Below are positions 13,552-63,830 of a stretch of 64,000 bases of DNA, one piece after another. The notes under the pieces were generated by a model. That model was not told the origin of the DNA, searched no databases, and saw only the letters and a program-made list of their open reading frames with translations. The position numbers were made by a program, and so were the translations under genes. The first letter of the stretch is position 1. Each line of letters begins with the position of its first letter. This stretch comes from Aedes albopictus (Eukaryota; Arthropoda; Insecta; Diptera; Culicidae), in NCBI RefSeq assembly GCF_035046485.1, contig NC_085138.1, positions 368,655,238-368,719,237 on the forward strand, given 5' to 3'.

Positions 13552-14696
13552 CACTCCAGCAAGGTTGTTAATCGATAAATTATCGCCGATAATTTAACGC
13601 CAACTATGACCTCGTTGACAGATTTTCGATAAACCGTCGTTAACGATAACAAGTACGTTACATTATCGTTATCGTTATCGTGTCTTCCATAATTTACCGA
13701 AAATTATCGAGTTAACTGTTGAATGCCAAGTAAAGAAATCGTTGGAGTGGTGATTTTCTTAACTTCAGTCAAATGTTTCCGTCCGTGTACATTACTTAAG
13801 TATGAACATGTTGGATCATTTTTGTAAAATCATAACCTTAAGGAAATTAATAGGCATCACAATCTGCTACATAGGGACCCTTTATAAACCACGGGGAGGG
13901 GGGGGGGCAGTCTAGCCGAAGTCTACGCTCCATAAAAATTTTAAAATGTTTGTATGGACAAAAGTCAACGAGGGGAAGGGGGAGGATCTGAGCTGGCCAA
14001 GTTTTGGTCTACGTGGTTTATTAATGTCAAAATGTAATCGCCCGGAATCAATATTTTGTTCAATACTGTGATCAACAGGAGCCGGTGGAGTTTCCGAAGG
14101 CATTTATACAAAAATGCTTTTAGGAATTCCAGATGAAACCTCTGAGAAAATTCCTTATGAAACCGTTAGAGAAATCGTTATGGTCCCTGGAAGAACTGCC
14201 GTTGAAATGCGAGGAATTCTTGCATAAATTCGTACCTAATTTCGCGATGAAATTCCTGACAAAATATTCGATGCCACCAGGTATTCGGATGGGATTTCCG
14301 AGGGAATCATCGAAAAAATTCCCGAAGAAGTCCCTGTGGACATTTTGATGAAATGACAAATTATCGTTGAAATGCCTGGCAAGATTCCCGATGGAATCCC
14401 TGGTGGATTTTTGACAGAATGACACGAAATGCCCAATAAAATCTCTGGCAGAATTTCCGATTGAACCCCAACACGTACAAGCACTTGTTCAAGCAGACTT
14501 ACAGTCGTCAAATGTTTTCGACCAAGATTGCTATGATCAAAACTTCCAAAGTTAACTTCAGTTAACTATCGTTGAATTATCGAACGACGATAAATCCTGC
14601 GATAATTTATCATCATCGCAGTGAGCGATAACGTTGAACACAATTATCGTTATCGGCGATAACGATAATTTATCGATTAACAACCTTGCACTCCAG
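13552..14696. mobile_element. hAT-like element, 1129 bp, 8-bp target duplication, ATCG-rich ends
   Basis: CACTCCAG flanks the element at 13552-13559 and 14689-14696. The element (13560-14688) begins CAAGGTTGTTAATCGATAAA and ends with its complement. The terminal 80-120 bases on both sides are built of GATAA/TTATCG subrepeats. It splits the RTE RT between KKG and the DNN segment exactly as expected. Inside, 14110-14470 is the 12-bp-period repeat, so the element carries or later received satellite sequence. No transposase is present. Confidence 0.85.
14110..14470 (+). repeat. 12-bp-period satellite inside a hAT-like element
   Basis: Units such as GAAATCCCTGGT and GAAATGCCTGGC follow at 12-base spacing. 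The 101- and 91-codon minus-strand frames with a P-G-I-P-S-G-I pattern are read-through of this repeat and not genes. Confidence 0.6.
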
Positions 14697-29430: not shown

Positions 29431-30126
29431 AAAAAACGCATCCACACCCGCGACATTACGACACAAGGCTCAAAGAAAAACGACGCGGACAACGTGGTCT
29501 ACCCGCCACCGAATGATATGGCGATCTCGACCCTTCAAAAAAAATAAGAAGGATGTTTCGCGTCCCGACTGCAGGGTTGCCCGCTTGTACATCTGAAATA
29601 GAAAATAGTATTAAATGGTGATAGTCTCACAACAGTTGCATAATTTTCGGAAACAAATCTCTCTTTACATAGACAAAAATTACCTGAATCCTCCTGAAAC
29701 AAATGGTTTATTAACAATGAAAAACATAATACAAAAAAAAGTAGAACAAATTATGATCTTGGAATTTTCCTGCATTTAAATTAACAAAGTTAAAAATTAC
29801 AAGATCAGAATTTGGTAAGGTGATCTACCCACGTTACGGGGCCACATCGTGATTTTCGCATTGTTTTACAACTGAAACACAACTCTGAGGTTTGCAAGAG
29901 TCTTATTTCGTCCAAATGCTTATGAATTCGATAATGTGGGTCGAAAATTTCAGCAGAAAAGCCGGAATATCAGCACACGCACGGCAAGCGATGTTTGTTT
30001 TATTGCTGTCATCGCCTGATATGCGTTTGTTGCGGAGCGCCTTTGTTACCAACAAGCATGGGAAAACTCATTCGCTCACCTGAATGCCGGCGATGCAAAC
30101 TAGCAAAAAGAACGCCAACAACCCAA
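29431..30126. other. Unassigned sequence
   Basis: No motif or inverted repeat was recognised. The right end flanks the MITE at 30129 and continues after it at 31036. Confidence 0.3.
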
Positions 30127-31035
30127 TAGGGGAGACTGAGGAGACTTGATCCCTGGGGAGACTTGTTCCCCCCATATTTGCTCGGAATCAAAAACATTTT
30201 TCTTCTAGCATAATTTTTCCGAAACTACTCCTGGACAAACGACTATGATTTGGCTACAAGTGATTTCGATTGTACATTGCATTATTTTTTAACGGCTCAT
30301 GGTTTGTTTTCAGTCCTTCAGAAATCTTTTAGGCGATTCCGAAAAATCTCAATAACTTTGTGAAAATTAAACCAAATCGTGTCAAAATTTTACAGCACAT
30401 AGTTTAAATAGAATACTTTCAAACTTATTTATCCAAATAAGGCTGTTGTTAACATATTTTAATAAATTCAGCTTAGTATACACAACAGTGACATGGGGAG
30501 ACTTGATCCCTCGAGGATTACACACACATTATACATGTGAAAAATAAAATTCTATTCGGAAGCCTCTATTTACTTGGAATTCTAGTCTATAAACCGTTAA
30601 AATGTGTCAGATAATTATAACTTTAGTACAAACCAAGAAAAGGGGGATCAAGTCTCCCCATTTTGAAAATACGGCATATCCTTAAACATTTAAGGAAATC
30701 TTACAATTTCAAACACTCCAAATTCATCGAAAATAAAAGGAAACTCGAAAAGAAAATGAATAGGAAGATTCTGGAATTATTTTCCCTTTAAATAAACCAT
30801 GTGCTCGAAGGGGGATCAAGTGTACCCCATTTTTGAAAAATACATCATAAGACATGCCTCCATAAAAACACAGTTTTGAGTACTTTAACAATAATTTAAA
30901 GGCCTTCTGTTGTGTATTAACTTGCAATAGATGTTTACTTGCCATTTTGCACGGAAATCGGATCAAGTTTTGTGTTTTTTCTTAAAGATTCAGGTAAATT
31001 TAGAAAAAGGGATCAAGTCTCCCCAGTCTCCCCTA
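30127..31035. mobile_element. TA-flanked MITE, 905 bp, GGGGAGACTTGATCCC family
   Basis: TA lies at 30127-30128 and 31034-31035. The left end starts GGGGAGACTGAGGAGACTTG and the right end is the complement of GGGGAGACTGGGGAGACTTG. The terminal motif GGGGAGACTTGATCCC recurs inside at about 30493, 30640, 30810 and 31005 in direct or inverted form. No protein is encoded. Confidence 0.85.
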
Positions 31036-31780
31036 CTGAGTGAGAGCACGGCGCACTAAGAACGAACGCAGCACGAACGGCTCGCCACCGACGCCAACGA
31101 AGCGAATCAGGAGAGAAACAAATAGAGAGCGAATTGAATCAGCTTGCATCGGTGTATACGAAAAGAACGTTCGCTTTCTCAACTACCGAGTGGCATTCAG
31201 CTGATTGAATCAAAACGCACTCACTGATTTAATTCCCAGTACTGAATGCTTCCACTGAACGCTAAATGAACGTTCCAAAACGAATGCTCTCGCACCCGAC
31301 TCAGAACGCAAACATTCGTTCAATCTTGGTTCGTTCGCCTTCGGTACTCAGATTCGGTAGCGATTCATTCGGCTGCCGTTGCTTGCGTCGCCCGGTGCTC
31401 GGCGATTAGAAAGAATGGGCAATGAAAGTGGAAAGATTCTGCTTGGCTGGGGGAGAAGCACACTCGCATCAGATTGTGCATGGATGTGAATGAGGGATAC
31501 GCAATATTTTCATGATTTTTTCCCATCCTTGGTTACCAACATGCACCGCTTAGGACAAAGCGTTTGTTTTTCGGCGTGATCCGTTTTTCGTACCCTGTTC
31601 ATCATAAGCTAATGCTTTATGCTTCATTGTTCCTGGAAAGCACCACCGCCAGTCGTAAAAATGCGTTTTTCGTCAAAATGCAAAAAAAAAAACTCAGCGA
31701 AGCTTTGCGAATCACCTGCGAATGCTTGTCAGCTTCGTTTGCTGACGAATAAAGAAGTGCGAATATTCTCGGGCCCCTGT
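31036..31780. other. Unassigned sequence, GAACG-rich
   Basis: The first half has recurring GAACG, CGTTC and ACTGAATG words with no clear period. No open frame carries a recognisable domain. Confidence 0.3.
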
Positions 31781-37646: not shown

Positions 37647-38718
37647 ATTTTAACTAGGGACAATGGAAATTCGCGGCAAATTTTCTTAAATTTCGCGGAC
37701 GGATATTGTGAAATTCGCGGAGATTTCGCGGCTCCATATTTTTGACCGTATTGTTTAAAAAACACCAATTTTAAAAGCAAATAGGATAATTTACTTGGAT
37801 TTTGTGAGACGTTATCATAAACCCCCCGAACAGGTATCAAATTTGATGAAAAATCAGAAAAAAAACATATGTAAATTGCATTAAACTTTTATTATGCTGG
37901 ATTCGAAATTGTCAATAACTTTACATTGAAAAGAGTTCTGGAGCTCGATTTGAATAGGTCGTATGTGCTTTCGTCGATTAAAAATTCGATCAGTTGGATT
38001 CGCTTATTGTAGCGAAAACCGTTGAAATTGAACAAAGTTGATACATACAGCAAAATCCTCACAAAATAAGCTTTCCATTCCATCATCAAAAGTCTCAAAA
38101 ATATCTTTCATATTGCTACAATAACTAAAATAAACTGATCGAATTTTATATCGACAAAAGCACATACGACCTATTCAAATCGAGCTCCAGAGTTATTTGC
38201 TTTTTATGTTTGAACATTTAAAATTAGTGGAATTTTACAATTGGGTTTTTAAATTAAGAAAAATGTATCGATTTTTTGATTTTATACGAAAGAGCACCGT
38301 TTTTTGAGCCACTATGATTTTTTCAGATTTTTAGAACTTTATTTTGATACCTAAAATCAATTTCAAAGAGATTTTTTGAAATCACCTTTTGACAGCTGGG
38401 TAACTGTTTGACAGCTCCACCCAGTACAAAATGCGACGAGGGGTGATTCGACAAATCGCTCCCATACAAACTTCAAATTGATTTTTAAATAGGTTCCCGG
38501 GTACCAAAATTCATGAAAATTTGGATTTCGGCTCAGTTTTGCATGCAGATTCAGAATATGGAATTATCTCAACACCGCTAAAGAAGCCAATTATTTTCAG
38601 AATTTTGTCAGATTTCGCGGCATTTCGCGGGATTTCTTAAATTTCGCGAGCATTGCCCAATTTCGCGGATTTCGCGGCTTCCGCGAAATCGCGAATTTCC
38701 ATTGTCCCTAATTTTAAC
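37647..38718. mobile_element. hAT-like element, 1056 bp, 8-bp target duplication
   Basis: ATTTTAAC is at 37647-37654 and 38711-38718. The element starts TAGGGACAATGGAAATTCGC and ends with its complement. Subterminal sequence is full of TTTCGCGG repeats on both sides. It contains a separate foldback element at 37938-38190. There is no transposase. Confidence 0.87.
37934..38194. mobile_element. Foldback MITE nested in the hAT-like element, 253 bp
   Basis: Starts CTGGAGCTCGATTTGAATAG and ends with the exact complement. Arms match for about 80 bases, through TCGTATGTGCTTT and AATTCGATCAGTT. AGTT at 37934-37937 and 38191-38194 is a possible 4-bp target duplication. Confidence 0.8.
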
Positions 38719-38779: not shown

Positions 38780-39097
38780 TGTCTTGTTGACGATGATAAT
38801 AAGACCTGCTGCCGAGGAATCTAGGCTAGATCATCGAGCTTACTCTGCATATCCGAGCACCGTTGCGTCAGGAGAGCAACATCAACATCATCAGTCAGTT
38901 CGATGTTATTTAGGTGCTAGCCCAGTCAACACATGACCGCATATGATGTTGAATAGGATGCAAAAATGGAGGCGCTATTCAACGTCATATAAGACTGTGT
39001 TAACGGGGGGGCTGCCACAGCAACCCACGATTTGCTTCACGATCAATCTCACCTACCAGGATTCCATCGATTACGATGAGGAAAAGTAGCGGTGATG
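38780..39097 (-). pseudogene. LINE RT fragment, motifs around B-C, split by a small MITE
   Basis: 39097-39010 reads SPLLFLIVIDGILVGEID and then NRGLLWQP. 38930-38780 reads NIELTDDVDVALLTQRCSDM and then SKLDDLA. These correspond to the segments just before and at motif C (a FADD-type block altered to LTDD). The MITE at 38931-39006 lies between them. Confidence 0.72.
38931..39006. mobile_element. Small MITE, about 76 bp
   Basis: CCCAGTCAACACA at the left and the complement of CCCGTTAACACA at the right bracket ATATGATGTTGAATAG and its near complement. The element sits inside LINE coding sequence. The CCCAGTCAACC end of the MITE at 5998-6142 is similar. Confidence 0.65.
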
Positions 39098-39188
39098 GTA
39101 TACATACAGAGAAACAGACGAAACACTTAGAACAAATTTCATTAAAAAACATCGTCACAGAAACATAATCGCCCAATGCAAACGTACT

Positions 39189-40318
39189 GTGTATAGTAGC
39201 GTGGGACACAAAAAGACATTTTACTCCTGTACACTTTTTGAGTTCCATTTTGGCCCCATATCAACTGTACAAAATTTCAGCTCGATCGGAGAAACTATAT
39301 TTTAGCGCCAGCCGTTTTAAGTTTTCATACGATTTACTATGGGGAAAATCTCCTTTTCAAAGAAAAATCGCCACAGGTTGCCCCTTAATCCCTGAAAATA
39401 TATAGATGAACGATTTCTGTTGGAAATTTGACGAGGAACAAACCTTCTGAAGACCGCAAAGCGATCTAATGCACGTGGAAAAAGTTATTAACTGAAAACC
39501 GAATGGCATGCCAACGCTGTTTAACATGTAAGGAATAACAATAAATAATAAAATCTCGTCATTTTATCGATCGGGAAAAACTTTATAACTTTTTCCACGA
39601 ATGTCGCATCACTTTGTGGTCTTCGAAGGTCTGATTCCTCGTGAAGTTATCTACAGAAATTATTCAACGACTTATTTTTAGGGATCATTGGGTGAACTCA
39701 AGCGATTTTTCTTTGAAGAAGTAAATTTTCCCCATAGTAAATCGTATGAAAAACTAAGAATGGCTGGCGCTAAAATATAGTTTCTTCGATCGATCTGAAA
39801 TTTTGCACAGTTGATATGGGCAGTGCTGAAAAATTCATTTCGTCATATCTAAATTCAACCACCTACAGCTCATTTTTGAAGCTGAACCTGAGAATATGGT
39901 ATATGAAAAACTTGTGCGGCTAAACCAGTTCTGTAAAAAAGTCACGGAAAAACCGCTATTTTTCGAATATTGAGGGTAAATGTCACGGACTACCTTCGAA
40001 AAATGCAAATGATATTCACGGTGAATATCATTTAGCATTTTTCAAAGGTAGTCCGTGACATTTACCTTAAATATTCGAAAAATAGCGGTTTTTCCATGAC
40101 TTTCTTACAGAACTGGTTTAGGCGCACAAGTTTTTCATATACCATATTCTCAGGTTCAGCTTCAAAAATGAGCTGTAGGTGGTTGAATTTAGATATGACG
40201 AAATGAAATTTTCAGCACTGGATATGGGACCAAAATGAAACACAAAAAGTATACAGGAGTTGAAGTTTTCCATTTTTTATATTTTCCCATATAAACCGTG
40301 TACCAGGCTAGTGTATAG
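39189..40318. mobile_element. hAT-like element G, 8-bp duplication, nested in F
   Basis: GTGTATAG lies at 39189-39196 and 40311-40318. Ends read TAGCGTGGGACAC and the complement of TAGCCTGGTACAC. Long inner arms (CATTTTGGCCCCATATCAAC and GATTTACTATGGGGAAAAT blocks) are inverted copies. The net length without the palindrome P is about 706 bp. No transposase is present. Confidence 0.87.
39813..40228. mobile_element. Near-perfect 400-bp palindrome P, 8-bp duplication, innermost
   Basis: GATATGGG is at 39813-39820 and 40221-40228. The 400 bases between (39821-40220) are a nearly perfect palindrome centred at about 40020, with at most one unpaired base at the centre (GATATTCAC against GTGAATATC). 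Ends start CAGTGCTGAAAA. CAGTG ends with an 8-bp duplication fit hAT. It is the youngest of the four. Confidence 0.92.
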
Positions 40319-40715
40319 ATAGTAGAGTAAACATAGATCCGCGGACACCGCTGACTAAAATGTTTCAAACGTGTAAGTAGTAATTTTCAAGAGTGTGACG
40401 GTTGAACATGACGTCATGCGCTCCATTGATGTTGTCCAAATCGTGACGTCATGCTCGTTTGGATACAGATTTTGACAGTTCCTTTGGATACAACGGATTC
40501 ATCAACACGGATCACTGTTTACTCTACTATCTATAGTACTGTGTATGGCCCGGCCCCTAGATGGCGGTAGTGAGCAAACGTCAAACAGGAGCAAAAATGA
40601 TACCAGCGTCGTGAGGGGTAGATCGACCAAATACTGTATATTTGAATCAACCGTTGAAAAGGGAATCGATGGGAAGCAATGAGAGTGTGACGTCTGTTTC
40701 TCTGTGGTATACATC

Positions 40716-40860
40716 CAGCAACGAACCGCATGGGATCGGACAAGACACCGGTGTGCAGTACTCTGCACGAAAATGCCCTGTACTATGCTTCAATGAGGCC
40801 GATGATTTTGTCAGTGACATCCTTGCGCTTGTTGGGAATACTCATTTGCAATAGTTATAC
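40716..40860 (-). pseudogene. LINE RT fragment upstream of MITE E
   Basis: KIIGLIEA, a stop, YRAFSCRVLHTG then VLSDPMRFVAGCIP lead directly, across the MITE E insertion, into SPLLFLIVID at 39097. That is the motif B region (GVRQGCILSP in relatives) with glutamine and glycine lost. Confidence 0.7.
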
Positions 40861-40919: not shown

Positions 40920-41728
40920 TTAACTCCTAAACTACCAAGGGTCCAAAAAAAGTCGGAAGTCCAACTTTGACAAGGCATTTCTCGGCCGTTTTTCAACCGA
41001 TTTCAAAACTTTTTTTTTGCGATGGAACCGGACAGGTTTCAAGAACAGCGTCCATTTAAAAGATTTCAAAATAGATGCGTCTACCCAAAGTTATTAAACA
41101 AAAGGCACTTCCTAGTTTTTTTTGAGAACGCCTTTTTTGCACACTTTGACCAATAAAATAAAATTTAAAGCGATGACATATGATTTTTCGACCCTAAATC
41201 ATGCGTACAGCCGGAATGAACATGTTTATGCAAAATAAGTGATTTTTCAGTACACTGATATTTTAATTTACTGAAAAACTTGCTAAAATACCCTATTTTT
41301 CACATAAAATAAGCAATAAATCAAAATTTAAAGCGATGACATATAGTTTTTTTGACTTAAATTGTTCGTAGGATTATACTGGACATTTTTGATTAACTAT
41401 AAAAATGTTTTAATTACACTCTTATTTTGTTTTACCCGAAGAACTACGAAAATTCCATATTTTTTACAAAAAGTAGTCAACAAAACTAAAATTAAAACGA
41501 TAACTTGTAGTTTTTTAGCCTTGAATTGTTCTTAGTAATTTGGGGGACATACTTGAAGAATAATAGTGGACGCTGTTCTTGAAACCTGTCCGGTTCCATC
41601 GCAAAAAAAAGTTTTGAAATCGGTTGAAAAACGGCCGAGAAATGCCTTGTCAAAGTTGGACTTACGACTTTTTTTGGACCCTTGGTAGTTCGCGGGAGTT
41701 TTTACCCCCTCAGTAGTTTAAGTGTTAA
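40920..41728. mobile_element. piggyBac-like MITE, 801 bp, TTAA-flanked
   Basis: TTAA lies at 40920-40923 and 41725-41728. Long inverted ends of about 130 bases contain GGGTCCAAAAAAAGTCGGAA, GCGATGGAACCGGACAGG and their complements. The left end lacks 28 bases between two ACTACC words that the right end and the copy at 61502 keep. The core holds two and a half tandem units of about 164 bp. TTAA indicates a piggyBac-type transposase. Confidence 0.85.
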
Positions 41729-41738
41729 ATTGCAATGT

Positions 41739-41914
41739 TATCTAAAATTTTATCGAATAAAGTAAGCGTCGCACACGCATACCAAAGTCGTGAGAGAGCT
41801 ATGAGCACGAGGTGAGAAAAATGAGTATAATTTAGACTCTCCTCGTGCTCGCAGCTCTCTAATGAATCCTGTATACGTGTGTGACATCTACTTTATTCGG
41901 CAAACTTTTAGATA
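41739..41914. mobile_element. TA-flanked MITE, 172 bp
   Basis: TA lies at 41739-41740 and 41913-41914. Ends read TCTAAAATTTTATCGAATAA and the complement of TCTAAAAGTTTGCCGAATAA. Further inner blocks pair (GTCGCACACG, GAGCACGAGG). It adjoins the TTAA element by only ten bases. Confidence 0.75.
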
Positions 41915-43310: not shown

Positions 43311-43542
43311 TATAGACACTATAGATTCCATAGACTCGCGGAGGCGAAGACAACTGTAGCCAAACGAACTGTCAGTTCGTGTAGCCAAACGAGCATGACG
43401 TCACGATTTGAAAAGCGACAATGGATTGCGTGACGTCATATTCGCTCGGTACACTCTAAATTCGTGGTAAAACACACTAAAGTCGTCTTGCTCAACCATG
43501 TCTTCGCGAGTCTATGGAATCTATAGTGTCTATAGTCGAGAG
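43303..43542. mobile_element. MITE, 224 bp, relative of element F
   Basis: GTCCAGAG (43303-43310) and GTCGAGAG (43535-43542) match at 7 of 8 positions. Ends read TATAGACACTATAGATTCCA and its complement. The inner GAGCATGACGTCACGATTT block is shared with element F at 40319-40535. Confidence 0.82.
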
Positions 43543-57420: not shown

Positions 57421-57935
57421 CACAGAGAAACAGACGTAACACTTAGAACAAATTTCATAGAAAAAACATCGTCACGAAAACGTAATCACCCAATGCTAAA
57501 TGTACTGTGTTTGGCTGGGTCACCACTAGGTGGCGGTAGTGAGCAACCGTCAAACAGGAGCAAAAACGATGCCAGCGCCGCCAGCGGTCAATTAAACAAC
57601 TACTGAATATTTGGGTCTCCCGTTAGCCTAGTGGTTAAGGCTATGGATCGCCAATCCGGATTCCCGTTCCGTTCGGGAAAATTTTCTCGACTCCCTGGGC
57701 ATAGCGTATCATTGTACTTGCCTCACAATATACAAATTCATGCAATGGCAGACAAAGAAAGCCCTTCAATTGATAACTGTGGAAGTGCTCAAAGAACACT
57801 AAGTTGAAGCGAGGCAGACCAAGTCCCAGTGAGGACGTCGAGCCATAAAGAAGAAGAAGAAGAAGAATATTTGAACCAACCGTTATAAAGGTGATCGATG
57901 TAAAGCGATCAGAGTGTGACGTCTGTTTCTCTGTG
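57421..57935. mobile_element. MITE E, second copy, split by a SINE
   Basis: Ends read CACAGAGAAACAGACGTAAC and the complement of CACAGAGAAACAGACGTCAC. TAGGTGGCGGTAGTGAGCAA and AACAGGAGCAAAAACGATGC match the copy at 39106-40706. Without the SINE and one of its duplications the length is 258 bp. The flanks show ATAAAA on both sides, an imprecise target duplication. Confidence 0.85.
57605..57870 (+). mobile_element. Feilai-like tRNA SINE, 248 bp, 9-bp target duplication
   Basis: GAATATTTG is at 57605-57613 and 57862-57870. The SINE starts GGTCTCCCGTTAGCCTAGTG (tRNA-like A box) and lacks most of the B-box arm. It continues CTGGGCATAGCGTATCATTG, GCGAGGCAGACCAAGTCCCA and ends in (GAA)n. Confidence 0.82.
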
Positions 57936-61497: not shown

Positions 61498-61799
61498 TTA
61501 ACACTTAAACTACCGAGGGGGTAAAAACTCCCGCGAACTACCAAGGGTCCAAAAAAAGTCGGAAGTCCAACTTGGACAAGGCATTTCTCGACCGTTTCTC
61601 AACCGATTTCAAAACTTTTTTTTGCGATGGAACCGGACAGGTTTCAAGATCATCGTCCATTTAAAAAAATATAAAATAGATGCGTCTACCCAAAGTTATT
61701 AAGCAAAAGGCACTTCCTAGTTTTTTTGAAAGCGCATTTTTTGCGCACATTGATCAATAAAACAAAATTTAAAGCGATGACATATGGTTTTTTCGACTC

Positions 61800-62037
61800 T
61801 ACACTCAGAAATAAAAGTATACACGGAATTATTATTATTTACGCATTTTGTATCCGCATCTCTCTCACTCTCTTTCTGTTTTCATGCTATCTGGTGCTTC
61901 GCCTGGGTTGACAAAACACTTCTCTTCAACCCAGGCTAAACGGCAGATAGCATGAAAACAGAATGAGAGTGAGAGAGATGCGGATACAAAATGCATAAAT
62001 AATAGTAATTCCGTGTATACTTTTATTTCTGAGTGTA
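61800..62037. mobile_element. TA-flanked MITE, 234 bp, nested
   Basis: TA is at 61800-61801 and 62036-62037. Ends read CACTCAGAAATAAAAGTATA and its complement, with arms over 100 bases long that include GATGCGGATACAAAATG. It interrupts the word GACTCTA-CATCATGCG of the host element. Confidence 0.88.
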
Positions 62038-62046
62038 CATCATGCG

Positions 62047-62547
62047 TACACGCTAACCCTCAGTTACCCAGATTGATGTCAAAGCGACCCAGACTGAGCA
62101 AAACTGCAGTTACTCTAAACTGAGTAAAGGCACCCTTACTCAAATCTGGGTTACCGATGTTGGTGGCAAAATCTGTGTAAACGATACCCAGCTCCTCCGG
62201 GGCCTTGATTTTGTTAATTTATTTCCAATTTAGATTTTAAATACAAAGCTCTTAATTTCCATGTGCTGTTCACTTACCTGATGCTGGAAAACAGTTCTCC
62301 GGAATAATTCCACTGTTTTCCCGTCATTTATCGGCATATTTTTCGCGAAAACATTCATAGTTTTCAGCGTTCTCCTGACCGCTGCCATATTCTCAAGCCG
62401 AAAAGTGACAAAGTGTCGATTACCCAGATCTTTACCCAAATTCAACGAATCTGGGTTTTCGGGTTACCCGAATGATGACAACTGCTAACAACATGAAAAT
62501 CCGGGTCGAATCGACCCAGTCGATGGGTAGTTTCAGGTTAGCGTGTA
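62047..62547. mobile_element. TA-flanked MITE, 497 bp, nested
   Basis: TA is at 62047-62048 and 62546-62547. Ends read CACGCTAACCCTCAGTTACC and the complement of CACGCTAACCTGAAACTACC. GGGTTACC-type words recur inside. Removing it restores ATGCGTACAGCTGGAGTGAA, which matches the other copy of the host. Confidence 0.87.
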
Positions 62548-62559
62548 CAGCTGGAGTGA

Positions 62560-63830
62560 ACATGTTTATGCAAAATTAGTGATTTTTCAGTACACTGATA
62601 TTTTACCTTACTCAAAAAACTGCTAAAATACCCTATTTTTCTCATAAAATAAGCAATACATCAAAATTCAAAGCGATGACATATAGTTTTTTTGGTCTTA
62701 AATTGTTCGTAGGATTGTACTCGACATTTTTGATGAACAATGAAAATGTTCTAATTACACTCTTATTTTGTTTTACCCAGAAATCTACGAAAATTCCATA
62801 CTTTTTACACAAAATAGTCAACAAAACTAAATTTAAAACGATAACATGTAGTTTTTTAGCCTTGAAATGTTCGTAGGAGTTTGGGGGACATACTTGAAGA
62901 ATAATAGTGATGTTTTCATTACACTCAAATTTTGATTCACTCAAAAATCAACGAAAGTACCACATTTTTCACGCAAAGTGGTTAACAAAAATAATGGCTT
63001 ACAGTGCAAAGTAATTTTTTACCTTTAAATTATTCGTGAAAGCGTACTGGACGTTCTTGATGAGTAAAAGTGACGTTTTCATGACACACTTAATTTATTT
63101 TACTCGAAAAGCTACAAAAATACCATAATTTTCATACAAAACAGTCAATAAAACAAAATTTAAAGCCATAACATGTAGTTGTATGGCCTTAAATTTTCCG
63201 TTACAATGTACTGGTCCTGTTTTAGATAAAATGTTGATGTTCACATTACACTAATATTTTGTTTTATAAAAAAATGTACGAAAATACCACAGAAAAAGCG
63301 AATAAGCCAAAATTTAGATATGTATGTATGATATGTAGTTTTTCAACTTTGAATTTATCGTAGTAGTTTAGTGGATTCATTTGAACAACCCTAGTGATGG
63401 TTTTATTACACTCAAATTTTATTTCACTCGGAATACTAGGAAAATACCACATTTTTTACACAAAGTAGCCAACAAATAAAAATATAATGCAATGCATTCT
63501 GGTTTTTTTGCCTTATATTTTTTCGTGAAATGATGAACATTGAACAACAATACCACCTTCATGACACTTAATTTATTTTACCAAACAAGTTTTTAAAATA
63601 CCATAATTGTCTTACAAAATAGTCAATAAAACAAAATTTCAAGCAATGACATGTAGTTGTTAGTCTTAAAATTTTCCGTTAGAATGTACTAGACATGTAT
63701 TTGATTATATTTTTATGTTCACATCACATCCACATTTTGTTTTACTAAAAAATCACGAATGTGCCATATTTTTCACACAAAATAGCCAATAACACAAAAT
63801 TCAAAACAAACACATGCAGATTTCTATTAC
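62560..63830 (+). repeat. Tandem array, unit about 160-165 bp, about eight units
   Basis: The marker AAAATACCATATTTTTCAC (and variants) occurs at about 62624, 62788, 62952, 63118, 63281, 63441, 63596 and 63757, giving spacings of 155-166 bases. Each unit also has a TAAAGCGATGACATGTAGTT-like and a TTACACTCTTATTTTGTTTT-like block. The copy of the host MITE at 40924-41724 has only about two and a half units. Confidence 0.82.

Follow-up and report, generated by a model that had tools for sequence, protein, structure and literature searches.

Structure of the locus

The window analyzed here is a stretch of 64,000 nucleotides of Aedes albopictus DNA (contig NC_085138.1, positions 368,655,238 to 368,719,237 of assembly GCF_035046485.1), numbered from its first base. 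Between positions 39098 and 40714 it contains four insertions, termed E, F, G, and P from the outermost to the innermost, that are nested one inside the next within an old LINE reverse-transcriptase (RT) fragment. A boundary check identified matching direct duplications at each level, bearing out the nested arrangement that a preliminary description of the sequence had proposed. The features are listed below in window coordinates.

38990..39104, minus strand (coding sense): left flank, old LINE RT fragment including the left copy of the E duplication (joined-flank reading VAGCIPSPLLFLIVIDGIL; L063 alignment)
39098..39104, unstranded: E duplication GTATACA, 7 bp, left copy (length from the family duplications)
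39105..40706, plus strand: E, MITE with CACAGAGAAACAGACG-type ends (first base C>T here), 250 bp net, broken by F after 39191 (27 genome copies; free copy at 57421-57935)
39184..39191, unstranded: F duplication GTACTGTG, 8 bp, left copy; single in other E copies
39192..40535, plus strand: F, MITE with TATAGATAGTAGAGTAAACA ends, 222 bp net, with G inside its left end (29 other loci; free relative at 43311-43534)
39189..39196, unstranded: G duplication GTGTATAG, 8 bp, left copy, made up of 3 bp of the F duplication and the first 5 bp of F
39197..40310, plus strand: G, foldback-like MITE with TAGCGTGG...CCAGGCTA ends, 706 bp net, long imperfect inverted arms, broken by P (genome copies)
39813..39820, unstranded: P duplication GATATGGG, 8 bp, left copy; single (once as GATTTGGG) in 10 of 10 inspected G copies
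39821..40220, plus strand: P, palindromic MITE, 400 bp, CAGTGCTGAAAA ends, 189-bp arms 96% complementary, 22 nt between the arms (genome copies)
40221..40228, unstranded: P duplication GATATGGG, right copy
40311..40318, unstranded: G duplication GTGTATAG, right copy
40536..40543, unstranded: F duplication GTACTGTG, right copy
40707..40713, unstranded: E duplication GTATACA, right copy
40714..40850, minus strand: right flank, LINE RT fragment continued (joined-flank reading; L063 alignment)

Once the inner insertions are removed, E measures 250 bp, F 222 bp, G 706 bp, and P, a near-perfect palindrome, 400 bp. The duplication pairs begin at 39098 and 40707 for E (GTATACA(T)), 39184 and 40536 for F (GTACTGTG), 39189 and 40311 for G (GTGTATAG), and 39813 and 40221 for P (GATATGGG). 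At the local base composition, an exact 8-mer at fixed ends is expected by chance with a probability of about 2e-5 and a 7-mer with 8e-5; the stack is therefore no accident of reading. F entered E at base 87 of 250 and P entered G at base 624 of 706, while G lies 5 bp inside the left end of F, its duplication overlapping that of F by 3 bp.

All four elements display the features of MITEs, being short, non-coding, and bounded by inverted ends with a target duplication on both sides, and having many near-identical copies at unrelated sites. The end sequences listed comprise CAGTGCTGAAAA for P and TAGCGTGG for G, together with TATAGATAGTAG. No open reading frame of 120 or more amino acids in the window ORF list overlaps 39098-40714, the window holds no Rfam match at gathering score, and a scan of viral contigs returned 0 matches to the P end.

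Several other repeats were recorded in the window. An element at 37655-38710, about 390 bp to the left of the nest, has an 8-bp duplication (ATTTTAAC) and TAGGGACAATGGAA ends. Exact 8-bp duplications also bound 13560-14688 (CACTCCAG, ends CAAGGTTGTTAATC) and 30053-31531 (GTTACCAA, ends CAAG[CG]ATGGGAAAA). Related, internally repeated blocks of 68-98% identity are located to the right of the nest (40930-41914) and near the end of the window (61498-63826).

Family copies and duplication lengths

Each family was compared across the 1.344-Gb genome that contains the window. A first look yielded 2321 candidates for P, 2010 for E, 1132 for F, and 2676 for G, and 40 were scored per family, these being the copies most similar to those in the window. 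The E sample was selected on the right 163 bp of the element; 30 loci were fetched, one of them the window itself, and 27 of the 29 others had both ends in range (the exceptions being L035 and L056). At L053 the matched copy is interrupted, and a neighboring E copy was scored in the duplication count instead.

In the E family, exact 7-bp duplications are found in 25 of these 27 copies and duplications with at most one mismatch in all 27, while an exact 8-bp duplication is found in none (0/27). E begins with C in each of the 28 other aligned copies (the free copy and 27 loci) but with T in the nest, and hence the duplication of the nested copy looks one base longer. The same 27 copies rule out both an 8-bp reading of the E duplication and a 9-bp reading (GGTATACAT, with symmetric ACAG/CTGT ends). 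In the free E copy at 57421-57935 the duplication is ATAAAAA/ATAAAAG, with one mismatch, and the element is 255 bp long after removal of a SINE-like insert, compared with 250 bp for the nested E. That insert (57614-57864), as read by eye, is of tRNA type, with a tRNA-like head and an AAG-repeat tail, and has the 9-bp sequence GAATATTTG on both sides.

The F family is the most uniform in this respect. Each of the 29 other loci measures 222 bp, and an exact 8-bp duplication is present in 28; a free relative at 43311-43534 measures 224 bp against the nested 222 bp, with duplications GTCCAGAG/GTCGAGAG that differ by one mismatch. For P, 22 of 27 other loci have an exact 8-bp duplication and one further locus has a single mismatch, the duplications thus being inexact at 5 of 27 loci. 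For G, ten copies were inspected as short pieces, namely the first ten plus-strand places among the 39 other scored ones, of which 7 have an exact 8-bp duplication and 3 an inexact one.

These counts revise the preliminary description in part. Its exact 8-bp duplication at every level holds for F, G, and P but not for E, where the duplication is the 7-bp GTATACA, and its view that four families share one duplication length falls with the 7 bp of the E family. The sizes it gave for F and its relative (222 and 224 bp, the latter at 43311) stand, and those for E are corrected from 249 and 258 bp to 250 and 255 bp.

At L051, four members of the E family are packed into 1.8 kb, and three of these share about 74% identity with the window E. 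L022 and L023 hold two P copies separated by about 2.4 kb, whose flanks match in inverted orientation and whose duplications are crossed, which points to a rearrangement.

The LINE host

When the flanks of E are joined, the minus strand yields an RT-like reading of 57 codons that continues through the junction (...LSDPMRFVAGCIPSPLLFLIVIDGIL...). This 57-residue piece matches an RT-like flank at locus L063 at 23 of 34 positions (68%, E 3e-11), and the neighboring stretch of that flank has, in a different reading frame, a Pfam match to RVT_1 (E 1.7e-7). Searches of Pfam and PDB with the joined 57-aa piece alone gave no match, nor did a Pfam search with the L063 piece that spans its F site. The window fragment is missing four motif residues beside the junction relative to L063 and has stops on both sides, and it is therefore a decayed piece of a LINE. 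The earlier statement that removal of E restores an RT reading thus applies to a short stretch of 57 codons only, given the motif gap relative to L063 and the stops on either side.

Empty sites and insertion order

A search for empty sites at each level, proposed with the preliminary description, found them for three of the four levels (P in G, G in F, and F in E), all of them paralogous, that is, located in other copies of the host element. Ten of 10 G copies have one GAT[AT]TGGG and lack P. Where G sits in the nest, near the left end of F, none of the 29 other F loci has an insertion, each being 222 bp in length. The free E copy and other E copies (selected at 230-275 bp) run through the F site, whose sequence is matched with at most 6 edits in 26 of 27 E copies, L046 being without a match.

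The nesting itself implies insertion in the order E, F, G, P. Compared with its family consensus, E differs at 16 of 249 positions plus 5 gap columns and F at 5 of 222 (2.3%). P differs at 12 of 400 (3.0%) from a consensus built from matches chosen for their likeness to the window copy, a figure that is inflated if the source copy of P already differed. For G, the closest of the scored copies, at C1:228970335-228970958, reaches 1108 of the 1126 bits over 624 bp (99%), and other scored G copies are at 94-96%. By these sequence comparisons E is the most diverged, and F, G, and P are inseparable: the divergence of P is slightly greater than that of F though P must be younger, a difference within counting error. 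Duplications of 7 to 8 bp that have stayed free of mutation at such divergence are no surprise, the probability calculated for E still being about 0.4.

Relationship to hAT elements and other known systems

Two properties of hAT elements, an 8-bp target duplication and the target pattern nTnnnnAn, are found in F, G, and P. In F, T occupies position 2 in 22 of 28 duplications and A position 7 in 20 of 28; the corresponding counts are 16 and 14 of 22 for P, and 7 and 6 of 7 for G. E does not have the 8-bp duplication of hAT elements (0 of 27 copies), and its duplications, counted in 24 copies under an end filter stricter than that of the 27-copy count, have T at position 2 in 13 of 24 and A at position 6 in 17 of 24 (pattern nTnnnAn). 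The ends of hAT elements follow the terminal pattern YARNG, which is fitted by those of P (CAGTG) and G (TAGCG) but not by those of F (TATAG, in full TATAGA) or E (CACAGAG). F, G, and P are thus probably hAT-type elements, an assignment supported by the length of their duplications and the bases preferred within them. The preliminary description had suggested one hAT-type transposase group as a possible source of a site preference; the hAT-type character is supported for F, G, and P (8 bp, T2/A7) and may or may not extend to E, with its 7-bp duplication. The pattern nTnnnnAn is stated for Hermes (PMC2803484), and another paper notes that it did not investigate which targets its Tip group prefers (PMC3942097).

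F, G, and P resemble hAT-type MITEs in being short, non-coding, and of high copy number, and in having inverted ends and 8-bp duplications with an nTnnnnAn bias. Foldback or palindromic MITEs are a known class, to which the 400-bp palindrome of P, with its 189-bp arms, and the long imperfect arms of G are alike. MITEs with 7-bp duplications are likewise a known class, and E is similar to them in its 7-bp duplication, CACAG...CTGTG ends, and length of about 250 bp; its target pattern nTnnnAn resembles the hAT pattern minus one base. A literature search for a transposon superfamily with 7-bp TSDs in mosquitoes found no paper. An 'm8bp MITE' entry is listed for Ae. aegypti (PMC3422177). Nested elements of distinct superfamilies have been reported from mosquitoes, in almost all species covered by one study, their share being greater in Ae. 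aegypti and in some Anopheles (PMC7728395). The nest described here is similar to those chimeras in its nesting, and is four deep with all duplications intact.

Origin of the nest

Given the observed boundaries, duplications, family memberships, and order, and the three levels of paralogous empty sites, the nest is best explained by four independent cut-and-paste insertions of MITEs, in the order E, F, G, P, each into its predecessor by chance, a reading to which we assign a probability of about 0.92. Family copies with the same ends at unrelated sites, together with the exact duplications, support this reading. The MITEs would have been mobilized by transposases encoded elsewhere: F, G, and P presumably by hAT-type transposases making an 8-bp staggered cut at nTnnnnAn targets, and E as a member of a family with a 7-bp cut and the similar but shorter pattern nTnnnAn. 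The hAT transposases are the likely agents, and landing would be random at this scale. MITEs have been reported to form 16% of the assembled Ae. aegypti genome (PMC3259105); where they may form about one-sixth of a genome, as in that case, a four-deep nest would need no special cause. Against chance nesting may be set the ends of F and E that depart from YARNG, the slight excess of P over F in divergence, the inexact duplications of 3 of 10 G copies and 5 of 27 P loci, the interruption of at least 2 of 29 other E loci, and a hint of recurring sites from L063.

Were one hAT transposase group to prefer certain sites strongly, several families could have been drawn to the locus, and F, P, and G do show a moderate hAT target bias; the G site GTGTATAG has T at position 2 and A at position 7, and E here and F at L063 are inserted at the same LINE RT codons with GTATACA(T). 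However, when the nest sites are scored with matrices derived from the same copies, random p is 0.48 for E (1 of 24 family copies scoring as low or lower), 0.095 for F (8 of 28), and 0.108 for P (5 of 22), and these three sites fit the preference of their own families moderately or poorly. In none of the exact sets (24 copies of E, 28 of F, and 22 of P) is the same duplication sequence seen twice, and the insertions occupy different positions within their hosts; the four families had been thought to choose the same spot, which is at odds with three different relative positions. A shared site preference strong enough to build the nest is accordingly very improbable. The probability is similarly slight that MITE interiors, or this locus, tolerate or attract insertions beyond other DNA, as an insertion sink would. 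Interrupted E copies are no rarity: of the 29 E loci outside the window, at least 2 (L035 and L053) are broken by an insertion, and L056 lacks a recognizable second end. An element with an 8-bp duplication lies nearby at 37655-38710. Yet the 56 other insertion sites (29 of F and 27 of P) include no case within E or G, nor any of F within P or of P within F, a count that covers nesting between families and is too small to exclude modest enrichment. Flanks resembling other fetched repeats or the window were seen at 28 of the 56 F and P sites. Neither a shared site preference nor a sink is needed for the nest.

That the duplicated sequences belong to the elements themselves, and are no target duplications at all, is extremely unlikely. 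The preliminary description had named such a finding as its own refutation, and it applies to one base at one of the four levels, the eighth base of the claimed E duplication being the first base of E itself; all remaining bases, in the duplications of F, G, and P and at seven positions in that of E, differ between family copies according to the flank.

Regarding interrupted E copies, the one at L035 (about 875-1455) is broken by an unrelated element that has the same CAAG[CG]ATGGGAAAA ends as window 30053-31531 and an 8-bp duplication, GTCACAAA. L041 was considered as a further interrupted copy and rejected, its apparent left end being an unrelated match.

A possible recurrent target in the LINE RT

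At L063 a copy of F with the duplication GTATACAT (locus positions 1493-1500 and 1723-1730) interrupts a diverged LINE RT at the very Cys-Ile codons into which E inserted in the window; two families have thus entered two LINE copies at one site, with GTATACA(T) used by E for a 7-bp and by F for an 8-bp duplication. The Cys-Ile codons of the C-I-x-S-P RT motif, with their near-palindromic GTATACA(T), could conceivably be a recurrent target of several unrelated MITE families, though this is unlikely. The case was found post hoc among the 56 flanks compared and the L063 site fits the F pattern well (random p 0.005), so that coincidence remains likely.

Significance

The nest provides a clean worked example in which family copies from the same genome fix the boundaries, give three levels of empty sites, and order four insertions in time. 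It also illustrates that a single mutation at the end of an element can make a 7-bp duplication look like one of 8 bp when one copy is read. Of all the observations, only the recurrence at L063 hints at something out of the ordinary, and it can be counted directly. If it is real, LINE RT motifs would offer permanent targets at which MITE nests begin and LINEs are put out of action, and the target choice of DNA transposons would be linked to LINE inactivation.
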